Positions 20,417-40,911 of a stretch of DNA of 64,000 bases are shown here, one piece after another. The notes beneath the pieces were generated by a model. It saw only the letters and a program-made list of their open reading frames with translations, had not been told where the DNA came from and searched no databases. The stretch is from Hydrangea macrophylla (Eukaryota; Streptophyta; Magnoliopsida; Cornales; Hydrangeaceae). Where the stretch lies: assembly GCA_033977485.1 (NCBI GenBank), contig CM066998.1, forward strand, positions 58,804,274 to 58,868,273, given 5' to 3'. The position numbers were made by a program, and so were the translations under genes. Positions within the stretch are counted from its first letter, which is position 1; every line of letters starts with the position of its first letter.

Positions 20417-22663
20417 TGTGGATATCGCAGGTTTTCTTTCTACCCACAGCTTTTCTTTTAAAATACTTTTCCAAATTCAAAACAAAACGAGTCGCCACTT
20501 AATTTTTAAAAGGAAAATTAAGAAACCATTTCAAAAAGGAAACTGATCTTTTGCGAAACCAAAGATTTGACTAGGTCCGGGGATTATGGAATAAAAAGGG
20601 AAGGAGCCCAATGGACTAAAACACCCCTTTTTATCCTATCTCGCGATAGGCCTCTACTTAACATCCTTTTAATCCGATTATTAATCTAAGTATGCCCTCA
20701 ATTAATACATATGTAAATATACATTACAAAAGCATGTCCAAATGGTGTAAGATTGCTAAGGGGGAAAATATCATTCAAAAATCAAGTAATTCAATTAGCA
20801 AACAACATGATATGCAAGATAGAGAACAAGGGAACTTACCCGGGATTCGGCCGCGAATATTAAACGTGCAATGCATACAAAGTAAAGAAATTCTACTAAA
20901 AAAGGTCTCTAATCACATATATACACATAAGGCAAGACTTAATTCTAAGGCGTCGTAAAAAAAAAGGCTTGAAAATCAATAAAATCAATAAATGAATAAA
21001 CTAGGGAGGACTTTGAGAAATCATACCTTAATAGCGCTACAAAACAAGAGGTTAACCCACATGATATACAAAATATAAGATTGGATCTTAAATAACAATC
21101 TTAGACTTCTAGCTTAAATCTATAAGATGTAATTAAATCTAAGGCAACTAAGTTCTAATTACAAGTGTTAGATCATATGGATGAACATATATACATGAAC
21201 AAAAATAAACCATGGAATATTTAGTGATTTAAATCCTTTAAACTTTGAATCCAAGCTATTCTAGAAACATGGTTTGAACCTTGACTAATGGAAATATCAT
21301 CTAAGCCATTATTCATAAGATTGATGAAAACTAATGCAGAATTCTGAAAATTACTGAGAGCAGATCATAACTTTAAGAAATGAAAAAGCATGGTTCCCGT
21401 GGTTTGATCTCGGTGAATTTTGGACACAAGATGCCTCTGTGTGTCTGGTTTTTAACCCAAAAAATAAATCAAAGTTTCAACGGTTGGATCTCCAGGAATT
21501 GGGCAAAAACCAGACATCACTCAGCATTCCACAACCTTCTGCCCAGAGTTCTTGCACGATTTTCTAAAAATAGCAAAAACATCAGAAATGCTTTATGCTT
21601 TTTAGGGTGACTTCCTAACACATTAATCTACTTAGAAAAAATTATTTTGGGTCACAAACACTTTATTAAAGCTCTGATTTGCTTATTTCAAAAGAAGGTC
21701 ACTGTTCTGAAACTGGGCAGATCGTTGTTACTTTGCAAAACTCATAATCAAACCACTTTGGACATGAAACCACCTCAAAACAAAAATTACAGTGGTAGAG
21801 TGTTGTATTACTGACACTTTTCCGTTGGTTTCACTTGATTTCAACGGTTAGATTTCGAACTAAAAATCTTTGATAAAAAATAATTTGTGAACTCACTGTT
21901 TTCATTTGTCAAGTTCAACTTTTATTTGGTAACTCCAACTATTAAACCATGAAGTTGGGTTTAAACCAAACCACTTCTCCTACCATTTGATGGTCTTTGG
22001 AGACTAAAGACCTTCATATTTGTAGATTTCATGTGAAGTATGAATTGACTTCATGAAATCTCAAGATAAGGAATCTAAACCATTGAGATGGGCTTGGAAT
22101 CAAAACCACTTTCTCCTACCACTTGATGGCCATTGGAGATGAAGACATGACTACTACTCATGAGTCTCAAAGGAATATAGAGAGGATTCCATGAAACATC
22201 AAGCTTAGAGGACCCAAGTCATGAGTATGGACTTGGATCCATCTATTTGCTTATAAAATGAAGTGATGATCAAACTTTGACTCCCATGGAAAGCATAGGC
22301 TTATATGGGATTCAAAAGATCATGTTCAAGAGATTTCAAGAAGAGATATTGAAAATCTCTAAGAGTCTCAAAAAAGAAGTATGACTAACAAAAGAAAGAA
22401 AACAAAGAAAACAAAGTAGTTTGAGGATTAGAGATTCAAAAGAGAAAGAATGTAAATAAACAACTTATGGTTTAGAGGATCACCTCCAAACTATCCTCAA
22501 AGTTTCTCTCCTTTGAAGGTCTTCCAAGCTCTTCTTCCTAGTTTCCTAAACTCTCTTTTTTTCTCAAAATATGTTAGTGTAATAGTAGTGATTTTCTTGT
22601 GTGTTGTTCTTGGTGGTAGCTCTTGTGTGTTCTTGTATATCTTTTCTCAAGAAAGATCTCTCT

Positions 22664-22671
22664 CTTTTATA
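22664..22671 (-). promoter_or_regulatory. TATA box of the Tat 3' LTR
   Basis: TATAAAAG on the minus strand, conserved in the 5' LTR at 40190-40197. It lies 110 bp downstream (in the sense of transcription) of the palindrome array. Confidence 0.7.
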
Positions 22672-22783
22672 GGCAAAATTTACCAAGTATTTTTAGTGAA
22701 TTCGGAGTAAAAGACAGGTGTAAACATCCCATTTGGTGGTACAATACGTACTTCCTGAAAATAGACAGACTACTGACAGGGCG

Positions 22784-23100
22784 ACAGTCAAAACGTATTG
22801 CGGCAGTCAGTGGATGCCGCACCAGCACTCCGTGAATACCGCGGCGGCACTCCATGACTGCCGTGCGGCATTCGCTGAGAGCCGCGAAAAATTATTAACT
22901 GCCGCATTTTAGTCAGCCTTATTTATCAGTTTTTTGTTTTTATCCGCCTACATATACGTATTGTACTCCAAAATACGAACTTTAAAAGCGAACGACAGTC
23001 AGAAAATGTCGGCGGCACTCTATGAATGCCGTTCGGCACTCACCGAATACCGTTCGGCACTCACGGAATGCCGTTCGGCACTCACTGAGTGCCGCGGAGT
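22784..23100. repeat. CGGCACTC/GAGTGCCG palindrome array, Tat 3' LTR
   Basis: Around ten half- or full-site motifs in two clusters (22784-22905 and 23004-23100). Good examples are CGGCACTCACGGAATGCCG (23055-23073) and CGGCACTCACTGAGTGCCG (23076-23094, perfect 8-bp arms). The counterpart in the 5' LTR is at 40308-40625. Confidence 0.9.
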
Positions 23101-23383
23101 TCTGCCGTATGCCATTTTTTGTTGAGCTTCTCTTTTTAGGTCTCTTCTTTCTTCCCTTTTTCTTAAAGAAACTTTATTTTCGAAGATCGTTTCCAAAAAT
23201 GGTGTCTTATACCTGAATTCTCCTAAATACCTGGTATTTTTTCCTTTCTGTGAAATTTTATCGCGTTTGGAAAACTTTCTGAAGAGCTTGGAATATTTCG
23301 AATCTTTTTGGTCCTTATCATTATTGGACGTGGAGGTGACGCTCTCCTAAATTCGACGTTAGGTCAAAATTGGGATGTCTACA

Positions 23384-23397
23384 GTTTGCCCCTCTTT
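23384..23397 (-). other. Tat polypurine tract
   Basis: Minus-strand AAAGAGGGGCAAAC directly adjoins the LTR start TGTAGACA. A second, similar CAGTTTGCCC word (plus strand) occurs at 30066-30075, on the far side of the antisense cassette. Confidence 0.8.
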
Positions 23398-23836
23398 GAC
23401 AGAGCTTGTGGGGCAACGTGTCCCATAAGTGAATGTTAAAGCCTGTGTGAAGACAAGCCTTTGACCAGGCTGTCGAATTTAGGTCAAATAAAATGCGTTG
23501 CAAAAATGTCTTCACAAACGGTTCATGTCGGTCATGCTCAATGGTGAGCTGCCTACGTATCCATTCGGGAATCAGACCAAGACGTAGTTTGGGCAGGAGC
23601 CAAACATACACAAGCACAAGCAGCCATACGGATGGATGCACCTATCTTGTCGTGATGCAAATGCTGTGCGATGGTATCTTCTGAATTGACCTGGTCATAC
23701 AGGCGCCATACTTATCATGTCTTTCCTATGTACGGCACACTTTACGTGACGTATTAGTCGGGGAAGGTCATCTAATTCTTGACTGCTGCGAAATCTGTTA
23801 CGGGGGTCATGAAGATGTTTTTTATTTTGATTCTGG
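23398..23836. other. Tat 3' non-coding region with TGCCTACGTATCC motif
   Basis: No gene. Contains TGCCTACGTATCC followed by GGGAATCAGACCAAGACGTA (23550-23590), which recurs in slightly altered form at 30113-30153. Confidence 0.6.
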
Positions 23837-24462
23837 GGGTTAACGCAAATTTGTTGCGAAAACCGAGAATGTAAATTCGTTGCGGAAATCGGGAATGTAA
23901 ATTCGTTACATTCTCAAGATAAGGATCAATGTAAATTGGTTACGTGGATCGAGAATATAAATTTGTTATATTCTCGGAATACGGGTTAACACAAATTCGT
24001 TGCGAAAACCGAGAATGTAAATTTGTTACATTCTCAAGATAAGGATCAACGTAAATTCGTTACGAGGATCAGGAATATGAATTTGTTATATTCTCGAAAT
24101 GAGGGTTAACGCAAATTTGTTGCAGAAACCGAGAATATAAATTCTTTACATTCTCAAGATAAGGATCAACACAAATTTGTTGCAGAGATCGGGAATATAA
24201 CTTCGTTATATTCTCAGAATACCGGTTAACGCAAATTTGTTGCGGAGACCGAGAATGCAAATTCGTTACATTCTCAAAATAAGGATTAACGCAAATTTGT
24301 TGCGAAAATCGAGAATGTAAATTCGTTGCATTCTCAAAATAAGGATTAACGCAAATTTGTTGCGGAGATCGGGAATATAAATTTGTTATATTCTCGGAAT
24401 AAGGATTAACGCAAATTTGTTGCGGAGATCGGGAATATAAATTTGTTATATTCTCAAGATCT
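23837..24462. repeat. 60-bp tandem repeat, ten units, each with two hairpins
   Basis: Units 2-10 start every 60 bp from 23923 to 24403; the first unit (23837-23922) has an internal 26-bp expansion. Each unit has a small hairpin (CGCAA-ATTT-GTTGCG type) and a larger one (GAGAATGTAA-ATTCG-TTACATTCTC type). Paired arms change together between units. Because 60 is a multiple of 3 the minus strand stays open over 24488-24069 as a 20-residue repeat containing QQICVNPY; I regard that frame as incidental. Confidence 0.9.
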
Positions 24463-24697
24463 TTAATTTTCAGGAATTGGGAGCCCACGGGCTCAAATAT
24501 TTTTTAATTTACAGGAATCGGGAGCCCATGGGCTCATATTTATTCCTAAATTTTGAAATTTGTAGTCAATTTAAACCTGAAAACGACCCCGAGGGCCAAA
24601 AGTGTGATGAGGGTAAATTTTGGGGGCCTCAAATTCAATTTTCGGGACTTGATTTGAATTTTTGGGGGGAAGTGAAATATCTTTGAACCGACTCAAC
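24463..24697. other. Spacer between the 60-bp repeat and the PMD-gene promoter array
   Basis: Two copies of GGAATYGGGAGCCCAYGGGC (24473-24536) and a purine-rich stretch. No gene. Confidence 0.5.
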
Positions 24698-24841
24698 CGC
24701 GGCACACGCGAATTTTAGCAGCAGTCGTTGAATGCCGCGCGGCACTCACGGAATGCCGTTGCGGCTCTCGGCGAGTGCCGCTCGGCAGTCCATCAACTGC
24801 CGCGCACGGAAAACTGAGTGCCGCGTTTGAGCGGCAGTGGC
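24698..24841 (+). promoter_or_regulatory. CGGCACTC/GAGTGCCG array upstream of the PMD gene
   Basis: About eight GGCAC/GTGCC or GCAGT half-sites lie in 144 bp. CGGCACTCACGGAATGCCG at 24740-24758 is identical to the 19-mer at 23055-23073 in the LTR. The array ends about 120 bp before a 5'-UTR splice donor (CAG|GTTAG at 24961/24962). No clear TATA box follows. Confidence 0.75.
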
Positions 24842-25065
24842 TAAAACCGGCGGTTTCAATTCATTTTCCTCATTCTCTCAGTCCTCTCTTTCTCGAAATC
24901 TCTCTGGAGAAAATTTTTTCTTTTTCCTTTTCTTGCTTGGATCGATCTCTGGTACTCACAGGTTAGTTTTGTTCGATCAAGACTTGATTAATCTCTTTTA
25001 TTTCGTTGTTTTTCTAAATTTTTCATGAATTTAACATGTGGATCTCTCTCTTCTTTTGACAGCTT

Positions 25066-27904
25066 ATGGCGAGCGGTTCAGGGAGGAAGAAGAAGGCCAA
25101 GTACACGGCCACCCATCACCCCGATGCTGCGCTCCTGCTCCGAGACCCAGACGAGCACTTATCGGCCCGCGCCTTCAAGCGCGAGGTAAATGCTCTCCCT
25201 TTATATATGTATTTCTTCCTTAATTTCCTTCATGAAGGGAATGTATAGTGAATCATAGCTTTGAATGTCTCATTTCACATGCAAATGTCATGCTTGTAGT
25301 GTATACATACTTTATTCAATGATTTTGCATCTAATCTTACTTCCTATGAATTTTATGAATATCATGCTCGGTGAATCATAATTTATTACCCTCCCTCGTG
25401 TCCATTGGACTTTCGGGTGTCGCACCTGTATCGAGTCCTTTATTTTTTTCTCAAAAGATTTTCGAATGCCGTTCGTGTTAATCAAAGAATCTTTATGCTT
25501 GTGATTTTCCTTTACGGATGCGATGCCTTTTAAATGAAATCCTGAACATTCTCCCTTTTTTATTGTACCTGTGAATTTTCTTGAACATTCCAAACGCCCT
25601 TTTAGTATTCAAAATTGATTCCCGAATGCTTGTGACCACATGCTTCTCTTTGAAACTATACTTCTTTTGGACCCAAAACATTATATATGCATGTATTTCA
25701 AAAATGTGAACAAACTACTTCCCTTTTATTTATTTATTTATTTATTTATTTTTTTATTCATTTTCTCTTGAATGCAAACGAGTGCCATGCTTGTGAAATT
25801 TACTACGAACGTTTCTAGATTTTCCATTTCTTTATTATTACCCATTTATTTCTATTGCTCTCTTCTTTATCCATTTCCTAACAACAAATCTTGTGATTCT
25901 TTCTTGCAGCTGCAGCCCAGGGTGCTGAAAGGGCATGGTAGTCTAGCTCATGGGCATGAGTGGTACATGGAGTTGGGCGAGACCGTACAGGGGCTTATAG
26001 ATGCGGCGGGATTTGGGGACTTCGTCAAACTTTTGACGAAGAGCTCCAATGATTTGAGACAGATCCATGCCCTTGCCGAGCGGTGGTGGGATACTACGAG
26101 CACATTCCATTTCTCGTTTGGTGAGATGACGATGACGCCGTTGGAATTCTCTATGATCACCGGGATATCGTTCGGAGGAGAGCCCTTGCGGTATCTGACA
26201 GACCAGGAGTGGGTCCAGGTGGAGCCCTTGTTGGGAGTGGTCTCGGAGGAGTCTTTGGTCACGGCCCGATGGTTTATGGATACATTTCGGGGCAAACCGG
26301 GTTTCTTTGATGAGCAGATGGCCCGAGGCTTTCTTATGTACATGTTGGGGTGATTTCTGTTGAGCACCAAGGGTGATCGGTCTCTGTTTCCCTGGTGGCG
26401 TCTCTGGAGCACCTGGACCGGGTTGAGGAGTATGATTGGGCTGGTACAGGGTTAGCTATCTTGTACAGGCATATGGGCGACATTTCTCGGGACAGGCCAG
26501 CCTCCACTGGTGGCTATTGGAGAGCGTGGGAGGTATACCCTTTCCTATATTCCATTTATTTTCAGAAACTTATTTAGATTGCGAGACTAACCTCCTCTCT
26601 CTCTTTTTTATGACAGATTTGGTCCCACGAGTATCTTCGCATGATGTCCCCTGAGACACGCGATGCCGACGCCCTTATCATGTCCCAGGGGCTGGAATGG
26701 GCGAAGGATAGAGTCGGGCGGAAGACCGGGGCCCACAATTTTGTTTCGTTTAGGAACTTCCTGACGAACCTGAGGGAGGAGCACGTTCACTGGCAGCCGT
26801 GGCTCAGGGTGCTTCCTGAGGCTCGCGCGGAGATCCGAGAGTCGGTCGGATATGACCCGACGAGGCGACTCCTCGACGGTAGGTCAGAGGGTCAGGCGTG
26901 GTATCTGGGAGAGAGGGTGACTAGATAGTCATTGGCGGTCCCCGGATTCTTTGTGCCATTCCCTCCTCCTGACTCTATGAGGGCCACAGACACGCTTCAG
27001 GGCAGCGAGATCACGGCTGCTCGAGCCGGCTTTGGTATTCACGGTTTCCTGGACGACCCTGCAGGATATGCGGCTTTCCGTGCCGCTAAGCTGATGCCGA
27101 ACTTTCCTCTGATGGAAGTGACTCGGGTGAGTATAAGATTCCTTCAATCTTTTATGAGTTTTCCTTCATTCTTTGTTTATGTTTTATTACTTTTTGTTTG
27201 CATCATGTTCCTGCCGCGGCTCATCCTCCCGCCTTGCCTGAGTGGGATTGGACTATGTCGACCGTCTCGTTCGACGAGCCTCACTTGATGACGATCCCTC
27301 GACTCTCACAGGGCGCCCCCACTATTCCTCTCTATTACGACGTTGTCTCGCGTGCTTACGCGGAGGAGGGCTTGACGTATGCCCACATCGTACAGTAGTG
27401 GGTTCTCGGGCGAGAGTGGATGGAAAGAAACTTATCCCCGCTTTTCACTTTGACTAGGATTATCGCTCTTTTTGCTAATCTTTTATTCTTGATTCTTGTT
27501 TTCAGGCTGAGGGAGCTCGGGCAACTGCTGCGGCTCAGTTGAGGGCCCAGTATGATCTTTTACCCTTTTTTATTCTTGGTATTCCATTCGTCCTTTTCAA
27601 CATTTTTCAGACTTATGTTCTCTTATTTCAGACAGAGGAGATCAGAGGCCTATCTCAGCAGGTGGGGCAGCTTCAGTAGTGGCTCCAACAGTTTGGTATT
27701 CCCCTCAGCGACACTCCTGGGGATGGCGGCGCTGGACGAGGCGTGGGGCGAGGCGGTGGTAGCGGTGTAGGCAGCAGCGGGGGTCGAGGCAGAGACGGCG
27801 GTAGCGGCAGACATGGAGGGACAGGTGGAGGTAGCGGGACAGAGTCGGAAGAGGAGCCTCTTAGGTGCACGACTCGTCAGACTCGCGGCCGGGGTCGAGG
27901 CTGA
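25066..27904 (+). pseudogene. Captured plant mobile domain (PMD) gene, spliced, antisense to the Tat element
   Basis: Exon structure is visible. A 5'-UTR intron (24962-25062) precedes the ATG at 25066. Exon 25066-25185 (40 codons, basic N-terminus MASGSGRKKKAK) joins in phase across GTAAAT...TTGCAG to exon 25910-26532. Exon 26617-27126 follows; later exon borders are less sure. Exon 3 holds the PMD core (AERWWDTTSTFHFSFGEMTM, TPLEFSMITGI, ARGFLMYMLG), the domain of MAIN/MAIL1 and many transposon-borne proteins. The C-terminus is Gly/Arg-rich and ends TRQTRGRGRG at 27904. Lesions: one frameshift near 26350, TGA at 26374, and TAG at 26926, 27396 and 27677. PMD proteins of the host act in transposon silencing; the role of this copy is unknown. 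Confidence 0.82.
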
Positions 27905-28324
27905 TCCTGCTTTTGTTATTTTTGCTTTTGAGTGTTATGGGAGGATTTACACTTTTACTCGGATGATTGTATATACACATACTCTTTATTTTGATGGCTG
28001 CATTTAGGATAGCCGGTAGGGTAGGCACTTGGGTATCTTTTTCATTCTGCTTATTCACCGTCTGTGTGACCATAGCTTGGTACTCCTTTTGCCGTATGTG
28101 GGATCATGGCTTGGTCCCGTCTTTATTCTAATTTTGAAAGCTTTGATTTCTCTTTTCCTTATTGCGAAGTGAAAATGAATGGATGAATGGATGAATGAAT
28201 GAACGTTTCGATCTTTGTTGCACGTGCTGCATGATGCGCACGTTTTATTATTTTTTTATCTAGTTTTCTGTTTGCAGGTGGGCTGAAAGTGTTACAAACA
28301 GACCCTGGCCAATGAAAAACCCAG
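27905..28324. other. Spacer between the two antisense genes
   Basis: Presumed 3' UTR and intergenic DNA; GAATGGATGAATGGATGAAT repeats near 28175-28205. No ORF of note. Confidence 0.5.
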
Positions 28325-28455
28325 AACGGCACTCGGTTAGGTCTTCGCGGCACTCGGTGAGTGCCGCAGCTGCAGTCAGAGAATGCCGCGACGGCACTCA
28401 CGGACTGCCGCGCGGCACTTCGTCGAGTGCCATTCTACTTTATCGAGTGCCGCCC
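28325..28455 (+). promoter_or_regulatory. CGGCACTC/GAGTGCCG array upstream of the second antisense gene
   Basis: Contains CGGCACTCGGTGAGTGCCG (28348-28366, perfect 8-bp arms, 3-nt spacer) and CGGCACTCACGGACTGCCG (28392-28410, one base from the LTR 19-mer), plus further half-sites. It ends 23 bp before a TATA-like TATTTATAT at 28478-28486. Confidence 0.85.
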
Positions 28456-28477
28456 TACCTTCAGGCAGATCTACCTC

Positions 28478-28486
28478 TATTTATAT
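28478..28486 (+). promoter_or_regulatory. TATA box of the second antisense gene
   Basis: TATTTATAT, 58 bp before the ATG and directly after the palindrome array, giving a predicted 5' UTR of only about 30 nt. Confidence 0.55.
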
Positions 28487-28543
28487 CCTCTTTTCTTCAA
28501 AACTCCGCAAAACACTAATTTTCTTTGTTCTCCTTTTTTCCAA

Positions 28544-29635
28544 ATGGCCCCCATTAGCTCCCAAATCCTTTTCCCATGGATGGATACTCTCTCTGGCATT
28601 GACAAGCTCAACTTTGAGTGTTTCAGACTAAACGATCTCTTCTCTTTTCGACGGATGAATTTAAATGAAGGCTTACTTCGAGCTGCCATTCAGTGTTGGG
28701 ATCCTGCTCTCAATGTCTTTCGTTTCGGCTCTCAAGAGACTTGCCCCTTATTTGAAGAATTCAGCGCCATTCTGCATACTGACCCTTTTGCTGATTTGAC
28801 TGTCCCTTTGGTTCAGGCTGGGTACGTCCGGGATTTAACCATTCTTCTTCGCATATCTCGAAATGCGGCGGGTTCTTTCGTTCATGATAGGCAGATCGAC
28901 TTTGAGCGCCTTTCTTCGGTTTATGCTCCCACAGGGGACCCTTACGATGATGAGTATCAGATCATTCGACGTAGTGCCCTGTCGATTGCTATGCTCTCTT
29001 ACTTCCTCTTTCAGTCATCTTCCGACACTCTCATATCCATCGCTTGTGGCTTGCGGGAGATGAAAAGTGCTGTCATGCTGGTCCTTGGTGAAACTCTGAT
29101 TGGATTGGGCCATGCTCATGCTACCAGGGCCATATTGTCTGCCGGGGCACCTTTTGTCCTGCAGATTTGACTCATGGAGCGTTTGGACCTCTTTATACAC
29201 CCTTCCCACCTTCGTGGGTCACTTTCTTATGATCGTGTGGAGATTCACAACTTATTTCAGTCTGCCGATGCATGGCTTGGTTGGCTTCAGGGCCTCTCTT
29301 CCAATGATATCTGCTGGATCTGTCCGCAGTGGTTTTATCGCTCCATTGCTGTACATCTTCCTGGGCGACCCGACATTTGGCTACCGGGCTTGCGTGCTAC
29401 TACTTTCTACATTCCGGATCGGGTGGTCCGCCAGTTTGGACTTTTGCAGGATACTACTGAATCTGTGACTGCTGGTTTTACCAGGGGGTCCGCTTTGCGC
29501 CCTTCTATTGTGAAGGCTTTCACTGAGGCCTGGCATAGCAGGATAGCTGCTCCGTGCCCGAGGATTTCTGCTCCGACTGTGCCTACTGCCCAGTATCTTC
29601 TAGAGATCCAGGATTTGGTTGCGAGACGAGCTTGA
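28544..29635 (+). pseudogene. Second antisense Tat gene, unknown protein of about 363 residues
   Basis: The ATG lies in good context (CAAATGG). The frame is open for 208 codons to a TGA at 29168-29170, then continues in the same frame to TGA 29633-29635. The single stop is compatible with a CGA-to-TGA change. An AATAAA follows at 29649-29654. The N-terminal third contains the pattern LLRAAIQCWDPALNVFRFGS, which resembles proteins of the DUF7745 / PMD-related group that often travel with plant retrotransposons; this link is by memory of the pattern only. The rest (GHAHATRAIL, PQWFYRSIAVHLPG, YLLEIQDLVARRA) I do not recognise. No membrane segment or signal peptide is evident. Confidence 0.65.
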
Positions 29636-29654
29636 CAGACACATGCACAATAAA

Positions 29655-30185
29655 GTAGATGAAAACAGGGAGAAGCTTACCATTTTACAACAATTTTCTG
29701 ACAGACCCTGCCTACTCTTTTTACGCTTTTGAATGTGATTTTCCTTATTATTTATTTATTTATTTTTTTCTTTTCAAGAAGTGTTGTTATCTTTCAGAGA
29801 GGTTCTAACACGTTAAATCAGAAGTGCTCACCCCTTCGATTAATCTTTTATGAAGAATTCTCCTTTCAATGTCTTTACTTGGCTCTTTACTTTGCTTCTT
29901 TGCTTAAGCTTTAATCCTTCTATACTATGAATTCTCATTTGTTTCTCTATAGTACTTATCTTGATAACCAGGTGATCCACAAGAGGGTCTTGTATCTGGG
30001 TTCTTCAGCTAGCAAACGAAGTTTACCCCTAGTTTTAGGGTTTCGAAGTGGTTTCGGGCAAACGCCAGTTTGCCCATAGTTTTTTTTTTTTGAATGACCG
30101 AACCAAGTTGGTTGCCTACATATCCCCTAGCGGGAATCAGGTCAAGCGTAGTTCATCAAGGTAGGAGGTTTTGAAAGAGACGGTC
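29655..30185. other. Convergent gap between antisense gene 2 and the end of pol
   Basis: No gene. Contains a pyrimidine-rich run, a poly-T run (30079-30091) and a second TGCCTACATATCC...GGGAATCAGGTCAAGCGTAG motif (30113-30153) matching the one next to the 3' LTR. Confidence 0.6.
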
Positions 30186-31866
30186 TCAAGCAAAGTATTT
30201 CTTGAGGCGATCGAGGTTAATCGGTTGCTTAAACTCAACCCCGTCCAGGTCCATGCGATAGGCCGCTCCTCCGGAGAGGAGAGTCTTAATGATGTATGGC
30301 CCGACCCAGTTGGGTTTGAATTTTCCTCTGGGATCATAAACAGGCACTTTCAGTTCTTTGAGGACCAGGTCACCCTCAGCAATCTTCCTTGGGCGGACCT
30401 TCTTGTTGAAAGCACGAGCTATCCTCTTCTGGTACCCCCGAGTATGGTCTATTGCGGCCAGCCTCTTCTCATCGAGTAACATCAACTCCTCGTACCTTCC
30501 TCGTACCCATTCCGATTCGGTGATCTCACACTCTGCTAAAACCCTAAGGGAGGGTATTTCTACTTCGACCGGGAGAACGACTTCCATCCCGTAGACCAAC
30601 GAATATAGCGTAGCACCCGTTGAAGTTCTTACCGAGGTTCGGTATCCCCACAAGGCAAACGGCAGCTTCTCATGCCAATCCTTATATGTATCTGTCGTCT
30701 TCCCCAAGATCACTTTGACATTCTTATTTGCTGCTTCCACTGCTCCATTCGTCTGAGGCCTATATGGGGACGATTGGTGACGAGTGATCTTATACTTTTC
30801 CAGGAGTGGGATAACTTCCCCCTGAAAATGACTGCCATGATCGGAGATAAACTCACTCGGGACCCCATACCTGCAGATTATGTTTTTCTCGATGAAGCTC
30901 ACTACGTCCTTGGCTTTCAAAGTTGCATACGAGGCCGCCTCTACCCACTTCGTAAAATAATCGATTGCCACGATTATGTATCGGTGCCCATTGGAAGCCT
31001 TCGAAACTATCTCACCAATGATATCGATTCCCCACACAGAAAATGGCCAAGGGATGGTCATGCTATAGAGCTGTGACGACGGGGTATGCATCAGATTTGC
31101 ATGAATCTGACACTTGTGGCATCTTCTAACATACTCACAACAGTCCTTGTCCAAGGTCGTCCAATAGTACCCCTGTTGGATGATTTTCTTTACCAGCATG
31201 TGCCCATTCATATGGGGCCCACACACTTCCTCATGTATTTCCTCCATCATTCTCTTAGCTTCTTTTCCATATAGGCACTCCAGATTATATCCAGTGTAGG
31301 ATTTCTTCCATAGCTTATCTGCATAAATCACAAATTGAGCAGCGAATCGTCGAATCGCCTTTCTGTCCTTTTCTGAGGCTCCTTCGGGGTGCTCCCCTTC
31401 TTTAATGAACTTCCACACATCTTTATACCAAGGCACTTCATCTTTTCTTTCTATGGCTGCGATCATTTCAAATGACGGTTGATTCCTCACTTCTATGGAT
31501 AGCGGGATCATGGCAACATTGGAAGGGATTTGGATCATTGAGGCTAAGGTAGACAAAGAGTCGGCTAGTTGGTTTTCTTCGCGAGGGAGGTAGTAAAAGG
31601 AAATCTTTTGGAATTGCGCTTTCAGACTTTCCAGATAGTCATGATAAGGTTTCAATTTCTCATGCTTTACCCTCTAATCTCCTCGGACTTGGGATATGAT
31701 CAAGTTGGAATCTCCGAAGACATCAATCTTTCTGACTTTCAAAGCCAAGGCTGCTTCCATCCTAATTATGCATGCTTCGTACTCCGCGGTGTTGTTGGTT
31801 GAGTTATACTTGAGTTTGTCGGCTAGTGGGGTAGAGGACCCAGATGACCCCGACTCCGTATCCTAA
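30186..31866 (-). CDS. Tat pol: archaeal-type RNase H tail and integrase
   Basis: Open over 489 codons (31655-30186), the best preserved part of pol. It begins with the end of the second RNase H (YYLPREENQLADSLSTLASM), typical of Tat elements. Integrase follows: zinc-binding HHCC region (HEEVCGPHMNGH...CHKCQIH), catalytic core with GIDIIGEIVS (first Asp), FISDHGSHFQ (second Asp), NGAVEAANKNVK (Glu), and a C-terminal region with WVGPYIIKTLLSGGAAY. The gene ends at 30186, where YHLD-type elements would reach the 3' UTR. Upstream (31866-31656) the archaeal RNase H frame has a TAA after YFNGAAN and a TAG. Confidence 0.9.
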
Positions 31867-32537
31867 TTAATTGGCTGCTCCATTGAAGTACATCTTCCAC
31901 AGATCTTCTCTTATCTCCATCACTTCTTCATCAGGGAACTTGAATTCTCCTTTCTCTCTAGTTTCTACGGCGAAGTCAGCTAGGTACTCGGCGATGGACC
32001 TCCCCTTGACGGATTTGGAGGTGACATATCTGATATCAAACTCGGCTAGCATCATGGTCCATCGGGATATCCTACTGGTCAAGGCGGGTTTTTCAAACAG
32101 GTATTTGAGTAAATCATTCAGGAGATTAAGATCACGGGGAAGGGTAACATATAATGCCTAAGGCGACGAGTGCACCAGACTAAGGCCCAACAAGCTTTTT
32201 CTAACGGTGAGTACTTTAACTCGTATCCAGTCATCCTTTTGCTCAAGTAGTAAATGGCCTTCTCCACGTGCCCCTCTTCTCCTTCTTGGGCCAACATACA
32301 CCCCATCGAATCTTCGGATATAGAGAGATAAAGCAACAAGGGCCTCCCGGGTGAAGGCGGTGAAAGGACAGGTGGGTTCTGGAGGTAGGTTTTGATTTTG
32401 TCGAAGGCTTGCTGACATAAGGTATCCCACTCGAATCTCTCTCCTTTTCTGAGTAACTTGAATAGCGGGTCGCAGGTCATGGTGAGCCTTGAGATAAAAC
32501 GACTTATGAATTGTATTCTACCCAGGAATCCTCTCAA
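31867..32537 (-). pseudogene. Tat pol: RNase H and start of the second RNase H
   Basis: 32537-32118 contains the RT connection (MRGFLGRIQFISRFISRLT) and the first RNase H (LLLYLSISEDSMGCMLAQE, KYSPLEKACWALVW). The adjoining frame 32082-31867 gives its end (MMLAEFDIRYVTSKSVKGR) and the first acidic motif of the archaeal-type RNase H (MYFNGAAN). A frameshift separates the two pieces. Confidence 0.85.
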
Positions 32538-32549
32538 CTCTTTCTCATT

Positions 32550-33143
32550 TTACGGTGGGTTCATTTCGGTTATGGATTTAATTTTGGTGGGGTCTACCTC
32601 TATTCCCCTCTGGGTAATGAGAAACCCCAACAATTTCCCAGTGGTGACTCCGAACGTGCATTTTTGCGGGTTTAGCCTCATTTGGAACTCCCTCAACCTC
32701 CCAAAGAACTTTCTCAAAGCCCCTAGGTGCCCTTTCCTCTTCTTGGATTTTACAATCATATCATCCACATACACCTCCACCTCTTTGTGGATCATGTCGT
32801 GTAGCAAAGTGGTGGCAGCCCTTTGATAGGTTGCACCCGCATTCTTAAGTCCGAACAGCATGACCCTATAGCAATATGTCCCCCATGGAGTAATGAATGT
32901 GGTTTTCTCCCTATCCTCGGGTGCCATGAGGATTTGATTATACCCAGAGAATCCATCCATGAAAGATAGAAGCTCGTGTATCGCAGTGTTGTCAACCAAC
33001 ACGTCGATATGGGGTAACGGGAAATCGTCTTTAGGGCTTGCCCTGTTTAAATCTCGAAAATCAACGCAAACCCTGACACGACCATCCTTCTTTGGGACAT
33101 GCACAATATTGGCAATCCACTCAGGATACTCGGTGACCATCAA
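32550..33143 (-). pseudogene. Tat pol: reverse transcriptase
   Basis: Contains VPKKDGRVRVCVDFRDLNRA, FMDGFSGYNQILMAPEDREK, ITPWGTYCYRVMLFGLKNAG and YVDDMIVKSKKR. The YVDD active site is intact. The upstream frame joins through two small frameshifts at 33143-33200. Confidence 0.92.
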
Positions 33144-33179
33144 GAAGCTCTTAATTGCTTTTCAACCTCCTCTTTTACC

Positions 33180-34364
33180 TTAAGTGCCCATTCTGGCCTC
33201 ATTCGCCTCAATTTTTGTTTCATGGGTTTCGAATTGGGAAAGAGGGATGTGGTGCTGGACTATTTTTGGATCAATATCTGGCATATCGTTATAAGACCAT
33301 GCAAAAACATCTTTGAATTCATTTAATAGATTGATTAGCTCTTTGCTTTCTTCATTGCTAAGTGTTGAGCCGATAAAGACATTTTGAGGATTATTTTCAT
33401 TTCCTAGATTAATTGTTAGGGTGTTCTCTATGATTTTGCATGCAGATCCATTTTCTTTTTTAACTAATTTTTGCAATTCATCAGGTATTTCACATTCATC
33501 ACATTCATTAAGCGCATTCGAGTAGGCGGAATCAGTCATACTTTCATTGATCTTGTTAGGGGTGATTACAACAGACATAGCAATAGTAAGACGCCTCATT
33601 TGGGCCATTACAGACTCTGGGTGAGGGGGATACTTATCACTAGATTCAAAGACCCACTCCTTGTTGGCTCCCTGCTTGAGCTCCATAGTATTACAACCTG
33701 GCAGTCCCATGGTTTTCGTCTTCTCTTCCTTTTCCGGTTCTCCCCCTAGTTCGTACTCTTCTTCCAGCACATCCTCAACATTCCCCTCTTCAGCCTCGAC
33801 TTTCAGACTCTTGCCTTCTTCTTCTTCTTCTTCTCCTTCGGCTTTTACCCCTCCTTCGCTCAACAGGTTCTGTATAACCGGTCCGTCCAGTACACCAATC
33901 CAATCGTTGACGGTAACAGACTTTTCAGATATTTGCAAGAACGGGTCTTTATACTTGGAAAATTCGTGGGAGAAGAAGATCTCGAATCCTGGCTTTAGAC
34001 ACTTGTCTTTCTGGTCCATCCATGGCTCTGGGAAGCCACAAAAGGGGAAATCTTCTCCTTTCTTCATAAAGTATCCATTGAGCGTCTTTAGGTAAGGGTC
34101 TAACGGTGCATTGACGGCCTTTTTCTTCGTCCTCAGTTCCTTCTTTGTTGGTTGGTACCCCAGACCGTGAGTGTGAGTCTGAGTAGGGATTCTTGGAGAC
34201 TCCGGTAGGCCCTGAAGGTTTTTCCCCAACCCCAATCCTGGAAAGAAACCCATTTTCTTCATGATCCCTGCGACTACTAGACTGGCGGACTGATCAAAAT
34301 GGAGCGGTAGAAACTCTCTTGGCTTTTCCCCTTCCAGCATGCTGATGAACTCAAACCCTTCCAC
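33180..34364 (-). pseudogene. Tat pol: G-patch-like segment, acidic linker and RT N-terminus
   Basis: 394 open codons. Near residue 35 a glycine-rich G-patch-like motif (MGFFPGLGLGKNLQG...GLGYQP) appears, found in many Tat/Ogre elements between protease and RT. A Glu-rich low-complexity linker follows (EGEEEEEEGK region), then the RT N-terminal piece FKDVFAWSYNDMPDIDPKIV. It is separated from protease by a frameshift plus a TAG that stands where CAG is likely. Confidence 0.85.
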
Positions 34365-34393
34365 ACTTGCTTCTTCTTCTTGCAGCTATAATT

Positions 34394-34822
34394 CTAGCAC
34401 CAGCGCGCTGACGATGTTCCGAACAAACGGACCCAGCTGTCCCCGAGAATGTCGCAGACCTGGCCTTCCCAAACGTATTTGACCTTTTGATGAATGGTGG
34501 ATGGTATGGCACCTAAGCTATCCAACCAAGGCCTCCCTAGTAGTAGATTGAAGGAATTAGGGATATCGATGATCTGGAATTCGACTTCTTTGTCAACTGG
34601 CCCAACGGCAAGATTAAGAAAGATAATGCCCATGACTGCTCTCTGGGTGTTGTCATATGCCCTGACCTTTTGTTGGGACGGCACGAAGAACGATTCATCT
34701 AAATCCATTCGCTTGGCTGTTCGAAAATGACATACATTTAGAGTAGACCCGTTGTCAACGAGACAAGCGGGCACGGTGTTCCCCAAACATTTGACAGTGA
34801 TGTACAATGGTTTGTTGATCAT
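34394..34822 (-). pseudogene. Tat protease domain
   Basis: Retropepsin-like: active-site strand CLVDNGSTLNV (DNGS in place of DTGS, usual in this lineage) and the flap/closing motif NLLLGRPWLDSLGA. Its ATG overlaps the stop of the preceding frame as ATGA (34819-34822). Because gag-protease is normally continuous in relatives, I read this as a frameshift, not a designed junction. Confidence 0.82.
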
Positions 34823-36761
34823 GGGTCCTCCGGGGGCATGTCATTTGACGAGACGGTGATAGCCGAAGCCGGGATTTTGTCGATCAGCCCGATGAGGTCT
34901 TCCGGAGTGGTGTCGATAGGCACATCAGATCGATTCAGAGTGTCTAAGACTGCCTGTCTATGGCGTTTGGAGGCAATTAGCAACTCCCAAATGGTGATGT
35001 TAGCCTGGGTCTTCTTCATTTGCCTTAGAACCCTGTCTTCTCCCTCTTCTTCATTCAGCTTCCCTTTTCCTTTGTCCAGATCTCTCCCCGGGTGATCCTC
35101 CTCTAGCTCATGTGATTTAAAGTGTCTGCCCGAACGAGTTAAATGACTGGCCTCTTCCCTTGCCCACAGATTATCAACTTCTGGAGCAACTTTCAGGGTG
35201 CCCTCCACTATCTCTGTTTCTTTGTCGCTCTCGTACCAGAGATCATCTTCCACTTGGCTCGCATCTCGATCGTCGCTCCCTTAGATCCACCAGTCTGACT
35301 GCCCTATTTCACTCTTCATCGGCTGATTCTCCAAAGCATAGATTGTTGAACCCTCAGACAGCTGGTATGGCTTTCTTGGTGTCCCGGCCTTAGTGATTAG
35401 CCTAGACGGATTAGAGATTGTTTCTTCTATCCCGAAGAGATAAAGGCCCCGTGGTGGTGGCACAGCTTGATGATTTGGAAGCGGGTTTCTAGTAACATTT
35501 GGAGCTTTGACAGGTGGTTCTGAAATTACTTTGTTATCAATGAGGTTCTGGATTTCGTGCCTCAATCTCATACACCGATCCGTCGAGTGACCTTTCTGCT
35601 GATGAAATTTGCAGAAGAGGTCTCCTTTGAAATTTGGCAGAAGCGGTCTTGGTAGCGGATGAGGTTCCAATTGACGAAGGTGCCCCTTTGCTAACAGTCT
35701 ATCAAGGGCGGTCGACAGTGATACTCCCAAATCCGAGAATTTTCTTGGTGGATTATCTCCTCCTCCCTTAGGGTAGCTTCCCGTGATATCAAATTTTCTC
35801 TCCGGCTCGCTAAGCGCATTGACATCAGTTGGGCCGGGGTGACCCCCCGAATGTCCTCTGCCTGATCCATAGTTCGGCCTCCTGCATCGGTTCGGTTGTT
35901 CTTCCTTCTTGATGGTCCCTTCTTGAATTGCGTCTTCAATCCTTGTCCCCACATCAAACACCTCAGTAAAAGTATTGATGGATTGAAACCTCATCTTCTC
36001 TTGATAGATCGGTTGCAGGTTCTTCATTAACATCCGGATCTGTTCTTTCTCAGACGGCCTCTGTACCATCTTGGCGGCCTTTCCTCTCCAACGACTCAGA
36101 TATTCAGCGAATGACTCTTTACTTCCCTGTCTGGTTGTTTCTAGATCTCGGACAGTGACATCTAGATCTTGATTGTACTCATACTGGGCCACAAATGACT
36201 TCACGACTTCTTCCCAAATTCTGGTTTTGCCTGGCTCAAGCGTAAGGTATCATGATAGAGCAGCTCCGGTCAGGGTTTGTTGAAATAGAATAGCCATCAT
36301 AGTAGTGCTCTGAAAAGCCCCTATGCACATTCGGATATGACTGTGAGGATTCCCGATGCCATCAAACTTATCAAAAACCGGCATTTTGAACCCGGCAGGC
36401 AACGTCTCGTGGACCCCATCATATAGGCCTTCTAACTCCATCAGATAGGTATCAACTCCCTGAGCCTTGCGCATTACCCTTTCCAACTTCTCTATTTTCT
36501 CGATTAGTAGCTTCTCCTTATCAGCTTTCTCTCTATCTCTGTTGGCCCGCAGTGCATCGGTCCATTGTGCCTCCTGATCATCGAACCAATCTCCTTTCCC
36601 TCCTCCCAAAGGTGGGTCTATAATGGGTGGAATTACATGTGTTCTTCTATCATCCCCATCATGCTGTTCATGTTTTCAGCCTGTCGCCTCATCTGCTCCG
36701 CTTGTTGTTCTACCAGTACCCTTAACCCGGCCATCTCTTCGTTGTTTCTTTCTTCGGGCAT
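34819..36761 (-). pseudogene. Tat gag
   Basis: One reading frame from 36609 to 34819 with two stops: TGA near 36250 where Trp is expected (ALS*YLTLEPGKTRIWEEVV) and TAA near 35281. A frameshift near 36620 joins the N-terminal coiled region (MPEERNNEEMAGLRVLVEQQ). Landmarks are PAGFKMPVFDKFDGIGNPHS, ESFAEYLSRWRGKAAKMVQR, and the CCHC-like knuckle CKFHQQKGHSTDRC. Gag forms the particle and binds RNA. Confidence 0.88.
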
Positions 36762-37874
36762 GTCAGTGTATCCTCTCCTTACTAGCCTCGCCGTGGGATC
36801 TCTAAACCACCCTTGGTTTGCTATTTTTGCTCCTACAATAAATTTCAAAATTTTCTCTTTTAAAATTTTTATTTTTATTTTACCGTACAAAAGATATTTT
36901 AGAAAAACTTTCTTCTCATATGTCATGCAGATGCAATGCATGTGTGCGTGTGTGCCTATGCTATATGCCCAAAAAAGATAAAATCCTAATCCTAACACAT
37001 AAGGCACATAAGCACGTAAAATCCTTACCCATGTCAAGTACGATGATTTCTCCTTTCATTGTGACCCTCTACCCTCTCCAAGGTTGGACATTCAAAAAAA
37101 AATTTCAAAATTCATTTGAAAAGCCTTTCTTTTAAAAAACAATTCCCAAGATTTTGGATTTAGAAAAATGATCATGTGAAAAATGTACTTTGATAAAGGT
37201 AAATTTGGAGTTTCAAAAAGAAGAGAACCTCGAAGATTTTTTGAAAACTTTGGAATAAAAAGGCAAAAATCTGTTTTGCTTTTAAGGATGGATTTAAAAT
37301 TCTTTGGGTAGAGGATCGCATGATCGGATTATCACCGTACTTTTCACGAATTTGGATACATACAAGGTCAATGATGCTTAGCTAAACATGATATAGGAGA
37401 TGTAATCTCATAATCAAAATCTAACATATTCTGAAATGTCATGGGACATGAAGAGGAATTGCTTGAGAGCGATTAAGAGTTTACATGACCCGCATTAGGT
37501 GAGCATCGTCATCATCTCAAATAATCCCTTCCGGGCAGACAAAACTTCCTAGCACGTAACCCTAATCGAGAGCTGATTTCCTAATTTTTGAAAGGTTCTA
37601 TGGAAGCCACCATGCCATGGCTGGGTTTTGGTCAAGTAAGGGACCCTTGACACACATCCGATAGGACGCTTCATATACCAAATCATGGTACGAGATCAAG
37701 GGTGATCACATAGCCCCATGATGACTTGACCGACCGGGTTGCCCTGAGCCTCCAAGGTCATAGTTCCGTGCAATCGACTGGCTGAACATGCAAGTGAAAT
37801 GCAACAGGCACACAAAAATTAAATAAATCGATTAAAAGGATGTTTTTCAAGTCTAATCCTCAAGTGAACCCAAA
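36762..37874. other. Tat 5' leader
   Basis: About 1.1 kb between the tRNA-like PBS and gag. A/T-rich with no recognised ORF; chance frames only. Confidence 0.7.
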
Positions 37875-37878
37875 ATCA

Positions 37879-37933
37879 GAATTCTGGTCTGCGAAACCAG
37901 AGAATCTGGGTTCGATCCCCAGCAGAGTCGCCA
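37879..37933 (+). other. Extended tRNA 3'-half at the Tat primer-binding site
   Basis: Far longer than an 18-nt PBS. On the plus strand it reads as the 3' half of a tRNA: anticodon arm CTGGT-CTGCGAA-ACCAG (37884-37900, perfect 5-bp stem, 7-nt loop with T33 and triplet GCG), 5-nt variable loop, T arm CTGGG-TTCGATC-CCCAG (37906-37922, perfect), acceptor strand CAGAGTC, discriminator G and CCA (37931-37933). The triplet suggests Arg. The minus strand TGGCGACTCTGCTGGGG directly follows ATC after the LTR and is the PBS. No 5' tRNA half is present, so it is not a tRNA gene. Confidence 0.8.
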
Positions 37934-37936
37934 GAT

Positions 37937-40911
37937 TGTGGATATCGCAGGTTTTCTTTCTACCCACAGCTTTTCTTTTAAAATACTTTTCCAAATTCAA
38001 AACAAAACGAGTCGCCACTTAATTTTTAAAAGGAAAATTAAGAAACCATTTCAAAAAGGAAACTGATCTTTTGCGAAACTAAAGATTTGACTAGGTCCGG
38101 GGATTATGGAATAAAAAGGGAAGGAGCCCAATGGACTAAAACACCCCTTTTTATCCTATCTCGCGATAGGCCTCTACTTAACATCCTTTTAATCCGATTA
38201 TTAATCTAAGTATGCCCTCAATTAATACATATGTAAATATACATTACAAAAGCATGTCCAAATGGTGTAAGATTGCAAAGGGGGAAAATATCATTCAAAA
38301 ATCAAGTAATTCAATTAGCAAACAACATGATATGCAAGATAGAGAACAAGGGAACTTACCCGGGATCCGGCCGCGAATATTAAACGTGCAATGCATACAA
38401 AGTAAAGAAATTCTACTAAAAAAGGTCTCTAATCACATATATACACATAAGGCAAGACTTAATTCTAAGGCGTCGTAAAAAAAAAGGCTTGAAAATCAAT
38501 AAAATCAATAAATGAATAAACTAGGGAGGACTTTGAGAAATCATACCTTAATAGCGCTACAAAACAAGAGGTTAGCCCACATGATATACAAAATATAAGA
38601 TTGGATCTTAAATAACAATCTTAGACTTCTAGCTTAAATCTATAAGATGTAATTAAATCTAAGGCAACTAAGTTCTAATTACAAGTGTTAGATCATATGG
38701 ATGAACATATATACATGAACAAAAATAAACCATGGAATATTTAGTGATTTAAATCCTTTAAACTTTGAATCCAAGCTATTCTAGAAACATGGTTTGAACC
38801 TTGACTCATGAAAATATCATCTAAGCCATTATTCATAAGATTGATGAAAACTAATGCAGAATTCTGAAAATTACTGAGAGCAGCAGATCATAACTTTAAG
38901 AAATGAAAAAGCATGGTTCCCGTGGTTTGATCTCGGTGAATTTTGGACACAAGATGCCTCTGTGTGTCTGGTTTTTAACCCAAAAAATAAATCAAAGTTT
39001 CAACGGTTGATTCTCCAGGAATTGGGCAAAAACCAGACATCACTCAGCATTCCACAACCTTCTGACCAGAGTTCTTGCACGATTTTCTAAAAATAGCAAA
39101 AAAATCAGAAATGCTTTGTGCTTTTTAGGGTGACTTTCTAACACATTAATCTACTTAGAAAAAATTATTTTGGGTCACAAACACTTTATTAAAGCTCTGA
39201 TTTGCTTATTTCAAAAGAAGGTCACTGTTCTGAAATTCTGGGCAGATCGTTGTTACTTTGCAAAACTCATAATCAAACCACTTTGGACATGAAACCACCT
39301 CAAAACAAAAATTACAGTGGTAGAATGTTGTGTTATTGACACTTTCCCGTTGGTTTCACTTGATTTCAACGGTTAGATTTCGAACTAAAAATCTTTGATC
39401 AAAAACAGTTTGTGAACTCACTGTTTTCATTTGTCAAGTTCAACTTTTATTTGGTAACCCCAACTATTAAACCATGAAGTTGGGTTTAAACCAAACCACT
39501 TCTCCTGCCATTTGATGGTCATTGGAGACTAAAGACCTTCATATTTGTAGATTTCATGTGAAGCATGAATTGACTTAATGAAATCTCAAGATAAGGAATC
39601 TAAACCATTGAGATGGGCTTGGACTCAAAACCACTTTCTCCTATTACTTGATGGCCATTGGAGATGAAGACATGACTACTACTCATGAGTCTCAAAGGAA
39701 TATAGAGAGGATTCCATGAAACATCAAGCTTAGAGGACCCAAGTCATGAGTATGGACTTGGATCCATCTATTTGCTTATAAAATGAAGTGATGATCAAAC
39801 TTTGACTCCCATGGAAAGCATAGGCTTATATGGGATTCAAAAGATCATGTTCAAGAGATTTCAAGAGAGATATTGAAAATCTCTAAGAGTCTCAAGAAAG
39901 AAGTATGACTAACAAAAGAAATAAAACAAAGAAAACAAAGTAGTTTGAGGATTAGAGATTCAAAAGAGAAAGAATGTAAATAAACAACTTTATGGTTTAG
40001 AGGATCACCTCCAAACTATCCTCAAAGTTTCTCTCATTTGAAGGTCTTCCAAGCTCTTTTTCCTAGTTTCCTAAACTCTATTTTTTTCTCAAAATATGTT
40101 AGTGTAATAGTAGTGATTTTCTTGTGTATTGTTCTTGGTGGTAGCTCTTGTGTGTTCTTGTATATCTTTTCTCAAGAAAGATTCTCTCTCTTTTATAGGC
40201 AAAATTTACCAAGTATTTTCAGTGAATTCGGAGTAAAAGATAGGTGTAAACATCCCATTTGGTGGTACAATACGTACTTCCTGAAAATAGACAGACTGCT
40301 GCACAGGACGGCAGTCAAAACGTATTACGGCAGTCAGTGGATGCCGCACCGGCACTCCGTGAATACCGCGGCGGCACTCCATGACTGCCGTGCGACATTC
40401 GTTGAGAGTCGTGGAAAATTATTAACTGCCGCGTTTTAGTCAGCCTTACTTTATCAGTTTTTTGTTTTTATCCACCTACATATACGTATTGTAGCACAAA
40501 ATACGGACTTTAAAAGCGAACGACAGTCAGAAAATGTCGGCGGCACTCTATGAATGCCGTTCGGCACTCACCGAATGCCGTTCGGCACTCACGGAATGTC
40601 GTTCGGCACTCACTGAGTGCCGCGGAGTTCTGCCGTATGCCATTTTTTGTTGGGCTTCTCTTTTTAGGTCTCTTCTTTCTTCCCTTTTTCTTAAAGAAAC
40701 TTTATTTTCGAAGATCTTTTCTAAAAATGGTGTCTTATACCTGAATTCTCCTAAATACCTGGTATTTTCTCCTTTCTATGAAATTTTATCGCGTTTGGAA
40801 AACTTTCTGAAGAGCTTGGAATACTTCGAATCTTTTTGGTCCTTATCATCATTGGACGTGGAGGTGACGCTCTCCTAAATTCGGCGTTTGGTCAAAATTG
40901 GGGTGTCTACA
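37937..40911 (-). repeat. Tat 5' LTR (2975 bp)
   Basis: Pairs with 20417-23383. Drives minus-strand transcription from TATAAAAG at 40190-40197. Its first 540 bp show only about three differences from the other copy; later parts show somewhat more, by eye. Confidence 0.95.
40308..40625. repeat. CGGCACTC/GAGTGCCG palindrome array, Tat 5' LTR
   Basis: The same two-cluster layout as in the 3' LTR, about 110 bp upstream (minus-strand sense) of the TATA box. Several sites differ by single C/T or G/A changes, e.g. GGAATGTCG here for GGAATGCCG there. Confidence 0.9.

Follow-up and report, generated by a model that had tools for sequence, protein, structure and literature searches.

In a 64,000-nucleotide stretch of the Hydrangea macrophylla genome, one near-palindromic motif is arrayed in both long terminal repeats (LTRs) of a retrotransposon and upstream of its two antisense genes. 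The stretch (the window; G000:C17:58804274-58868273, within a 2.22-Gb genome of 19 contigs) carries at 20417-40911 a 20,495-bp element that, by its sequence, is a Ty3/gypsy LTR retrotransposon of the Tat/Ogre type with gag-pol on the minus strand. The antisense genes lie on the plus strand between the integrase and the 3' LTR, and both encode proteins of the plant mobile domain (PMD) type. The arrays occupy defined positions, are conserved in relatives, and differ between families in step at the LTR and the PMD-gene promoter. Such shared, kept or jointly changed tags suggest a self-made regulatory circuit. We propose, with a probability of about 0.52, that the arrays are cooperative operators bound by a protein that the element itself would encode, the direction of the effect being left aside.

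Palindrome arrays in the window element

A scan for CGGCACTC-N3-GAGTGCCG with up to three mismatches revealed 21 near-palindromes in the element. All 21 fall within four array ranges totaling 899 bp, which comprise the U3 regions of both LTRs and the sequences upstream of the two antisense genes; at this threshold, the 43,505 bp of the window outside the element contain none. Permuting the half-site 200 times at constant composition never yielded more than one site per permutation (mean 0.035). The arrays and the TATA boxes associated with them are located as follows.

22801-22884, LTR array block A of the 3' LTR, four palindromes in 21-22 bp steps
23013-23094, LTR array block B of the 3' LTR, four palindromes in 21 bp steps
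40328-40411, block A of the 5' LTR (the transcribed promoter); the unit at 40393 has four mismatches and stands outside the 21
40541-40622, block B of the 5' LTR, from the motif scan
24719-24823, array 5' of antisense gene 1, three palindromes plus a degenerate unit and a lone half-site
28327-28452, array 5' of antisense gene 2, three palindromes plus half-sites on the flanks
40190-40197 (5' LTR) and 22664-22671 (3' LTR), minus strand, TATA box of the LTRs, by eye
28478-28486, plus strand, TATA box of antisense gene 2, by eye, about 26 bp downstream of the array

These results uphold the preliminary description of this stretch, which had placed arrays at both LTRs, the PMD gene and the second antisense gene. 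The 19-mer it reported at 23055-23073 does recur unchanged at 24740-24758 and with a single base altered at 28392-28410, and the array stands directly upstream of the gene-2 TATA box as described. Self-comparison and direct reading of the sequence agree with its placement of the element ends, the LTRs and the GCCAC duplication. The same account had named general spread of a satellite as an outcome that would refute it; the motif is not scattered through the element, and spread of a satellite or simple repeat over the element is rejected, all 21 palindromes being confined to the 899 bp.

Across the window element and 14 related loci, 89 steps between neighboring palindromes (up to four mismatches) are shorter than 60 bp, and 78 of them measure 21-22 bp. 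With this step, the half-sites alternate in orientation approximately one helical turn apart. The LTR TATA box, recognized by eye on the minus strand, lies about 130 bp from the nearest palindrome, and a TTAT/TATA-like stretch occupies the matching aligned position in seven of eight U3 rows (the exception is L017). Gene 1, the PMD gene, has no evident TATA box by eye; its start follows a CT-rich stretch and an intron in the 5'-untranslated region (5'-UTR). The spacing between LTR blocks A and B (22866-23013 in the window) is 147-149 bp in most listed copies, which is near seven 21-bp steps or one nucleosome. This spacing may be plain homology, since the intervening stretch aligns among copies.

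Alignment of the U3 sequences of eight regions (W, L005, L013, L016, L017, L022, L023 and L024; L017 aligns poorly to the left of the array) yielded a pairwise identity of 84.6% for half-sites, 59.5% for the 3-bp spacers, and 71.4% elsewhere. Upstream of gene 2 (four copies) the corresponding values are 91%, 72% and 76%, and upstream of gene 1 (six copies) they are 86.5%, 80% and 73%, where the contrast is less marked. The half-site is unconstrained at position 6. Dyad symmetry of this kind raises the question of whether selection maintains the palindromes for hairpins, formed in RNA or in a single strand, that function in packaging, dimer linkage or transcript processing, the more so as the genomic RNA includes the arrays of genes 1 and 2. 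Arm complementarity, computed over 142 distinct palindromes, is 0.776 compared with 0.780 for shuffled arms, which reveals no compensatory changes. Because the arms match no better than shuffled arms, they appear to behave as two independent DNA half-sites, unlike RNA stems. The location of the arrays upstream of promoters also speaks against hairpins. We rejected the RNA-hairpin reading on these uncompensated arm changes and consider selection for hairpins of any kind highly improbable.

Conservation and family-wise change of the arrays

The genome contains 10,205 perfect C-type palindromes and no copy of the backward-read palindrome of equal composition; perfect G-type palindromes number 7,163, with a control count likewise of zero. 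With a wider pattern that permits any gap of 0-14 and either C or G at the inner end of the half-site, inward pairs number 14,210 as against 4 for the control, and outward pairs 18,291 as against 28. The places listed begin at the start of contig C1 and are therefore not a random sample. Among 50 inward pairs so listed, the gap is 3 in 48 and 9 in two, and the arms are C/C in 35, G/G in 14, and mixed in one. The gap is 3 in 45 and 2 in five of the 50 outward pairs listed.

Twenty 10-kb regions at early listed places were compared with pieces of the window; some of them are segmental duplicates, which leaves 14 distinct loci. Several of the loci L005-L015 (contig C1, 0.16-1.44 Mb) look like near-copies in direct and inverted order, which points to a segmental duplication of about 300 kb. 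Window-type LTR sequence is present in all 20 regions. An array lies upstream of the PMD gene in each of the six distinct loci that include the start of that gene (L005, L007, L013, L017, L020 and L024) and upstream of gene 2 in each of the three that include gene 2 (L013, L017 and L024).

Copies were also sampled without reference to the palindrome. A search with the gene-2 protein gave 9,555 first-look candidates, 150 of which were scored; 19 of the 150, on 17 contigs, were taken with roughly 560 bp that span the start and the sequence 5' of it. These are close relatives, 88-95% identical to the window protein. In all 19, two to three palindromes start some 130-200 bp 5' of the ATG (altogether 50, as compared with 0.0 in shuffled sequence), and a text pattern locates a TATA-like word about 65 bp 5' of the ATG in 17 of them (all except L031 and L033). 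A DNA pattern from the PMD exon gave 2,999 matches (control 0), and 15 of 100 listed were chosen for differing codon forms and read for 2.1 kb upstream. A script found palindromes with up to four mismatches at 10 of these 15 loci, and two others, L056 and L059, have a decayed or shortened G-type array by eye.

Two more distant families extend the comparison. L020 and L044 are adjoining stretches of C1 that form one element; it is 90% identical to the window in reverse transcriptase (RT), 49-57% in PMD pieces, and 61-71% in the main pieces of gene 2. Its LTR can be aligned with that of the window at 74% over some 1.7 kb, and the matches within U3 are short and confined to the arrays. It carries C-type arrays at all three kinds of promoter: in U3, 5' of the PMD gene, and 5' of gene 2.

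The G-type family (L046, L047, L051, L056 and L059) has at the PMD promoter an array of CAGTGCCG-N3-CGGCACTG with a 22-bp period, and the half-site CGGCACTG is used in the LTR and at the PMD gene alike. Eight of 50 listed G-type palindrome places were examined, six of them picked for odd spacers; seven are LTR U3 regions and one is a PMD promoter. In the C-type families, half-site position 8 is C in 97/132 LTR sites, 57/76 PMD-promoter sites and 39/51 gene-2 sites, and it is G in 4/132, 5/76 and 2/51, respectively. In the G-type family, position 8 is G in 35/51 LTR sites and 15/18 PMD-promoter sites. Judged from these sequences, the array appears to be shared by the LTR and the PMD promoter in the G-type family, and by the LTR and both genes in the other families. 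Coordinates alone reveal three LTR-PMD-LTR sets on C1 (2270433/2273318/2288167, 4180588/4183136/4198375 and 4241027/4243235/4255686). A comparison of the G-type LTR (L060:4055-7393) with the window LTR gives no match at E 0.01.

Identity between the G-type family and the window is 89% in RT, 37% in gene 2, and 36-59% in PMD pieces. Accessory genes thus diverge far faster than RT (gene 2, 37-71%; RT, 89-90%; L061:2087-3083 and L044:6356-7430), as would be expected from an arms race or a change of specificity.

Arrays shared between LTR and internal promoters might also arise without function, if a recombination-prone repeat were copied between the LTR and the internal region and homogenized by gene conversion. 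In the G-type element at C1:2268054-2288211, the LTR (L060:4055-7393) and the PMD promoter (L046) have 62 bp in common at 100% identity (E 2e-28) and no further similarity. Self-comparison of the window aligns its gene-1 and gene-2 arrays with each other at 83% over 65 bp, and other tandem repeats occur in the same region of these elements. Copying of this kind accounts for the origin of the arrays, but not for their retention: the spacers diverge while the half-sites do not, the 21-22 bp spacing is held, and the window element has arrays only just upstream of promoters. We therefore regard an absence of function as improbable.

The antisense proteins and the proposed circuit

The antisense genes of the window were delineated with the aid of Pfam and of L013, in which both genes are intact.

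25066-27904, plus strand, antisense gene 1, plant mobile domain (PF10536, E 2.7e-13 over 25913-26353)
24962-25062, plus strand, 5'-UTR intron of gene 1, by comparison with L013
25066-25185, 25910-26532 and 26617-27126, exons 1, 2 and 3 of gene 1, with more to 27904, by comparison with L013
28544-29635, plus strand, antisense gene 2, DUF7745/PMD type, no intron seen, by Pfam and the intact relative L013

The window copy is decayed, with several in-frame stops in gene 1 and one in-frame TGA near the middle of gene 2; open frames of the antisense genes are present in other copies. Gene 1 of L013 has six coding exons separated by five GT-AG introns and encodes 592 residues with a PMD match of E 9e-34. 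By eye, this protein has a basic N-terminus, and its PMD is followed by a heptad-like stretch and a basic tail rich in glycine and arginine. A predicted protein that dimerizes and contacts nucleic acid would suit the array. Its database relatives are six PMD proteins (Coffea MAIN-LIKE 2-like, Prunus, Jatropha and Chenopodium) with 29-38% identity, the best match being the Coffea MAIN-LIKE 2-like protein at 35%. The DUF7745 and PMD matches of window gene 2 are weak and fall below the Pfam cut-offs. Gene 2 of L013 scores 31.8 bits for DUF7745 (PF24924; cut-off 26) and 30.5 bits for PMD (cut-off 34.9), and that of the G-type copy L061 scores 51.9 and 37.9 bits. A piece of gene 2 retrieved two homologous proteins from the database and protein P0002 retrieved eight, including itself; a PDB sequence search with P0002 found no relative. 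Pfam families other than PMD and DUF7745 were not found in the antisense proteins. Among computable pairs, with synonymous sites saturated in many comparisons, the ratio of nonsynonymous to synonymous substitution rates (dN/dS) is 0.05-0.32 for the PMD exon and 0.10-0.57 for gene 2. Both antisense genes are under purifying selection.

DNA binding, the identity of the binder, its assembly into dimers, and the direction of its effect are what we infer from these patterns. The operators would consist of alternating inverted 8-bp half-sites with an inward gap of 3, an outward gap of 2-3, and 21-22 bp per pair, such that several protein dimers could sit side by side on the same face of the DNA. The likeliest binder would be the element's own product, with the multi-exon PMD protein of gene 1 as first choice; the DUF7745-type protein of gene 2 perhaps joins it. 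Such a binder would act upstream of its own promoter, upstream of gene 2 where that gene is arrayed, and upstream of the LTR TATA box, and the resulting feedback circuit would jointly set expression of the regulator and of gag-pol. It is tempting to go further and speculate that the PMD is a sequence-specific DNA-binding module, that Ogre/Tat families recognize themselves through a family operator code (C- or G-type) on the LTR and PMD-gene promoter, and that host MAIN/MAIL proteins share this ancestry; we offer this as a tentative proposal, at somewhat less than even odds.

A deletion derivative bears on how such a circuit might operate. Loci L007 and L008 (C1:437000-446999 and 448500-458499) belong to an element of about 11.3 kb from LTR to LTR, of which the 1.5 kb between the loci is unread. 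Most of its PMD gene, gene 2 and the integrase are gone, and its LTR and PMD-promoter arrays are kept. Retention of arrays here fits service in trans, or by a host factor. We favor activation or anti-silencing over repression for two reasons: the arrays are placed 5' of the TATA box and do not cover the start, and this derivative, lacking the genes, retains them. An element-encoded binder might still act as a copy-number brake, an autorepressor of the LTR and of the element's own genes. Autoregulated repressors too use arrayed dimer operators. Antisense transcripts, moreover, could restrain sense transcription, an idea raised in PMC7264820. Against repression, the arrays do not cover the TATA box and persist in the derivative without the genes, and this variant of the element-encoded reading seems rather unlikely.

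Several observations weigh against an element-encoded binder. A Pfam scan recognized no DNA-binding domain in the gene-1 or gene-2 protein, and structure models were unusable, with a mean predicted local distance difference test score (pLDDT) of 43.1 for the gene-2 relative and 41.6 for the MAIN-like relative. The G-type code is impure: seven of eight scored LTRs start with one C-type half-site (in the eighth, the first site lies outside the range scored), and C/G mixtures make up 18 of the 50 outward pairs listed, in most cases as the edge unit GAGTGCCG-cgg-CGGCACTG of G-type LTRs. Gene 2 of the G-type family has no array before its ATG in the one element read. Three of the 15 PMD-exon-sampled loci (L045, L052 and L057) have no array in the 2.1 kb upstream; their first coding exon is unmatched, and L045 has integrase-like sequence in between, yet in L047 the first exon is unmatched as well and an array is present. 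Coevolution of protein and motif would rest on one event, the single clear change of half-site seen. The expectation in the preliminary description that relatives carry arrays at the antisense genes was thus borne out by all 19 gene-2 copies and by L020/L044, but not by the G-type gene 2 or by the three PMD loci. Its proposal of a self-contained circuit gained partial support from the shared array, its persistence in diverged relatives, and the in-step change at LTR and PMD promoter, and lost some ground with the arrayless G-type gene 2 and PMD loci.

Binding by a host protein is the main rival to an element-encoded binder. A host transcription factor might bind the arrays, the element keeping host sites so that its LTR and antisense promoters are transcribed in the right tissue. 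ONSEN and Tnt1 are elements that keep host factor sites for transcription. The persistence of LTR and PMD-promoter arrays in L007/L008 despite loss of most of the PMD gene and gene 2 is consistent with such a factor, as are the CGGCA core common to the C- and G-type families and the failure of Pfam to find a DNA-binding domain in the element proteins; the mixed C/G edge units of G-type LTRs raise its odds. An LBD-type factor (GCGGC core) is one conceivable candidate. The difference between ...CTC and ...CTG, which affects LTR and PMD promoter jointly in one family, would require a second factor or a loose one. In addition, the DOWN motif CATGCAGTTT, which is tied to host PMD proteins, is absent from both strands of the element (the MORC1 instance, the only published instance searched) and is unrelated in sequence to the array. 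Weighing these points, we consider binding by a host factor a genuine possibility, though short of probable.

The Tat/Ogre element and comparable systems

The remaining features of the element, whose two LTRs are 97.5% identical by self-comparison of the window, are as follows.

20417-23383, minus strand, 3' LTR, TG...CA ends, by self-comparison
37937-40911, minus strand, 5' LTR, TG...CA ends, by self-comparison
20412-20416 (left) and 40912-40916 (right), 5-bp target-site duplication GCCAC, read directly
37916-37933, minus strand, primer-binding-site-like stretch, 3 bases past the 5' LTR, by eye
35281-36249, minus strand, gag (Retrotrans_gag E 9e-7)
32550-33161, minus strand, reverse transcriptase (RVT_1 E 1e-26)
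32118-32549, minus strand, RNase H (RT_RNaseH_2 E 3e-25)
30186-31673, minus strand, C-terminal end of an additional RNase H (31530-31673; RVT_3 E 1.5e-5), then integrase (rve E 1e-11)

The minus-strand order is gag, protease-like, RT, RNase H, additional RNase H (aRH) and integrase. The element has the order RT, RNase H, integrase of the Tat clade together with TG..CA LTRs and a 5-bp duplication, and it also has the additional RNase H between RNase H and integrase, the position at which aRH is described for Ogre/Retand in PMC6317226. Between protease and RT (33180-34385), the pol frame also has a predicted G-patch domain (PF01585, 23.4 bits against a cut-off of 22). By eye, the element apparently sits inside a Ty1/copia integrase frame, the halves of which lie at 19746-20498 and 40849-41457, both on the minus strand. 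Tandem repeats of 60/120 bp occupy 23868-24460, between the 3' LTR and gene 1, and the G-type element (L046) has 154-bp repeats of different sequence at the same location.

Several known systems resemble the proposed circuit in part. The foamy virus Tas gene lies in the sense direction. Here, the internal promoters are antisense and visibly share an array with the LTR, in which the two systems differ. Foamy virus Tas/Bel1 is one element-encoded regulator for both the LTR and an internal promoter (PMC8670036, PMC4929722), and an arrangement of this kind is proposed here. The proposed self-regulation also resembles that by VANC of the Arabidopsis VANDAL elements. VANC proteins recognize motif arrays in the noncoding regions of their own element, motifs differ among related families, and the accessory protein diverges fast (PMC5735166, PMC10398659). 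Dense, family-specific short motifs in noncoding regions are found here as well, with the G-type impure. VANDAL is a DNA transposon, a Mutator-like element (MULE) with a VANC protein, whereas the present element is an LTR retrotransposon with PMD/DUF7745 proteins. VANC motifs have one orientation; here inverted half-sites alternate on a fixed 21-22 bp lattice. Binding and demethylation by VANC have been demonstrated (PMC5735166, PMC10398659); the binding proposed here is a prediction from sequence. TnpA of En/Spm-type CACTA elements binds repeated direct and inverted subterminal motifs that differ between subfamilies (PMC2613891), much as an element protein is proposed to do here with motifs that differ between families. 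That system is a DNA transposon, its end motifs serve excision, and the protein is of another kind (PMC2613891).

Extra open reading frames (ORFs) of Tat/Retand/Ogre elements have been described as antisense, located between pol and the 3' LTR, and accompanied by tandem arrays nearby, as in the window element (PMC11963269, PMC7264820 and PMC6317226). PMD is reported in 57% of Ogre elements (PMC6317226); the preliminary description had likewise called the capture itself not new. For antisense ORFs, both a promoter of their own and a regulatory role have already been proposed (PMC7264820, PMC11963269). In the open literature searched, subscription papers excluded, we found no report of the motif itself, or of LTR and antisense promoters having a cis-array in common. 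The host PMD proteins MAIN and MAIL1 regulate genes that share a promoter motif, and direct recognition of that motif is a hypothesis in PMC7156037 and PMC9899485.

Tat/Ogre elements have for years been known to carry antisense genes to which no function is assigned. The array offers them a concrete target together with a concrete candidate protein, and the difference between C- and G-type provides a built-in control for specificity. If the circuit is real, LTR retrotransposons would have evolved self-recognizing regulation resembling that of VANDAL, and a molecular function would be assigned to a host domain associated with silencing. Should the PMD be the recognition module, each family would regulate or unsilence only itself, and such regulators would be the ancestors of the host MAIN/MAIL silencing proteins, or have a common origin with them.

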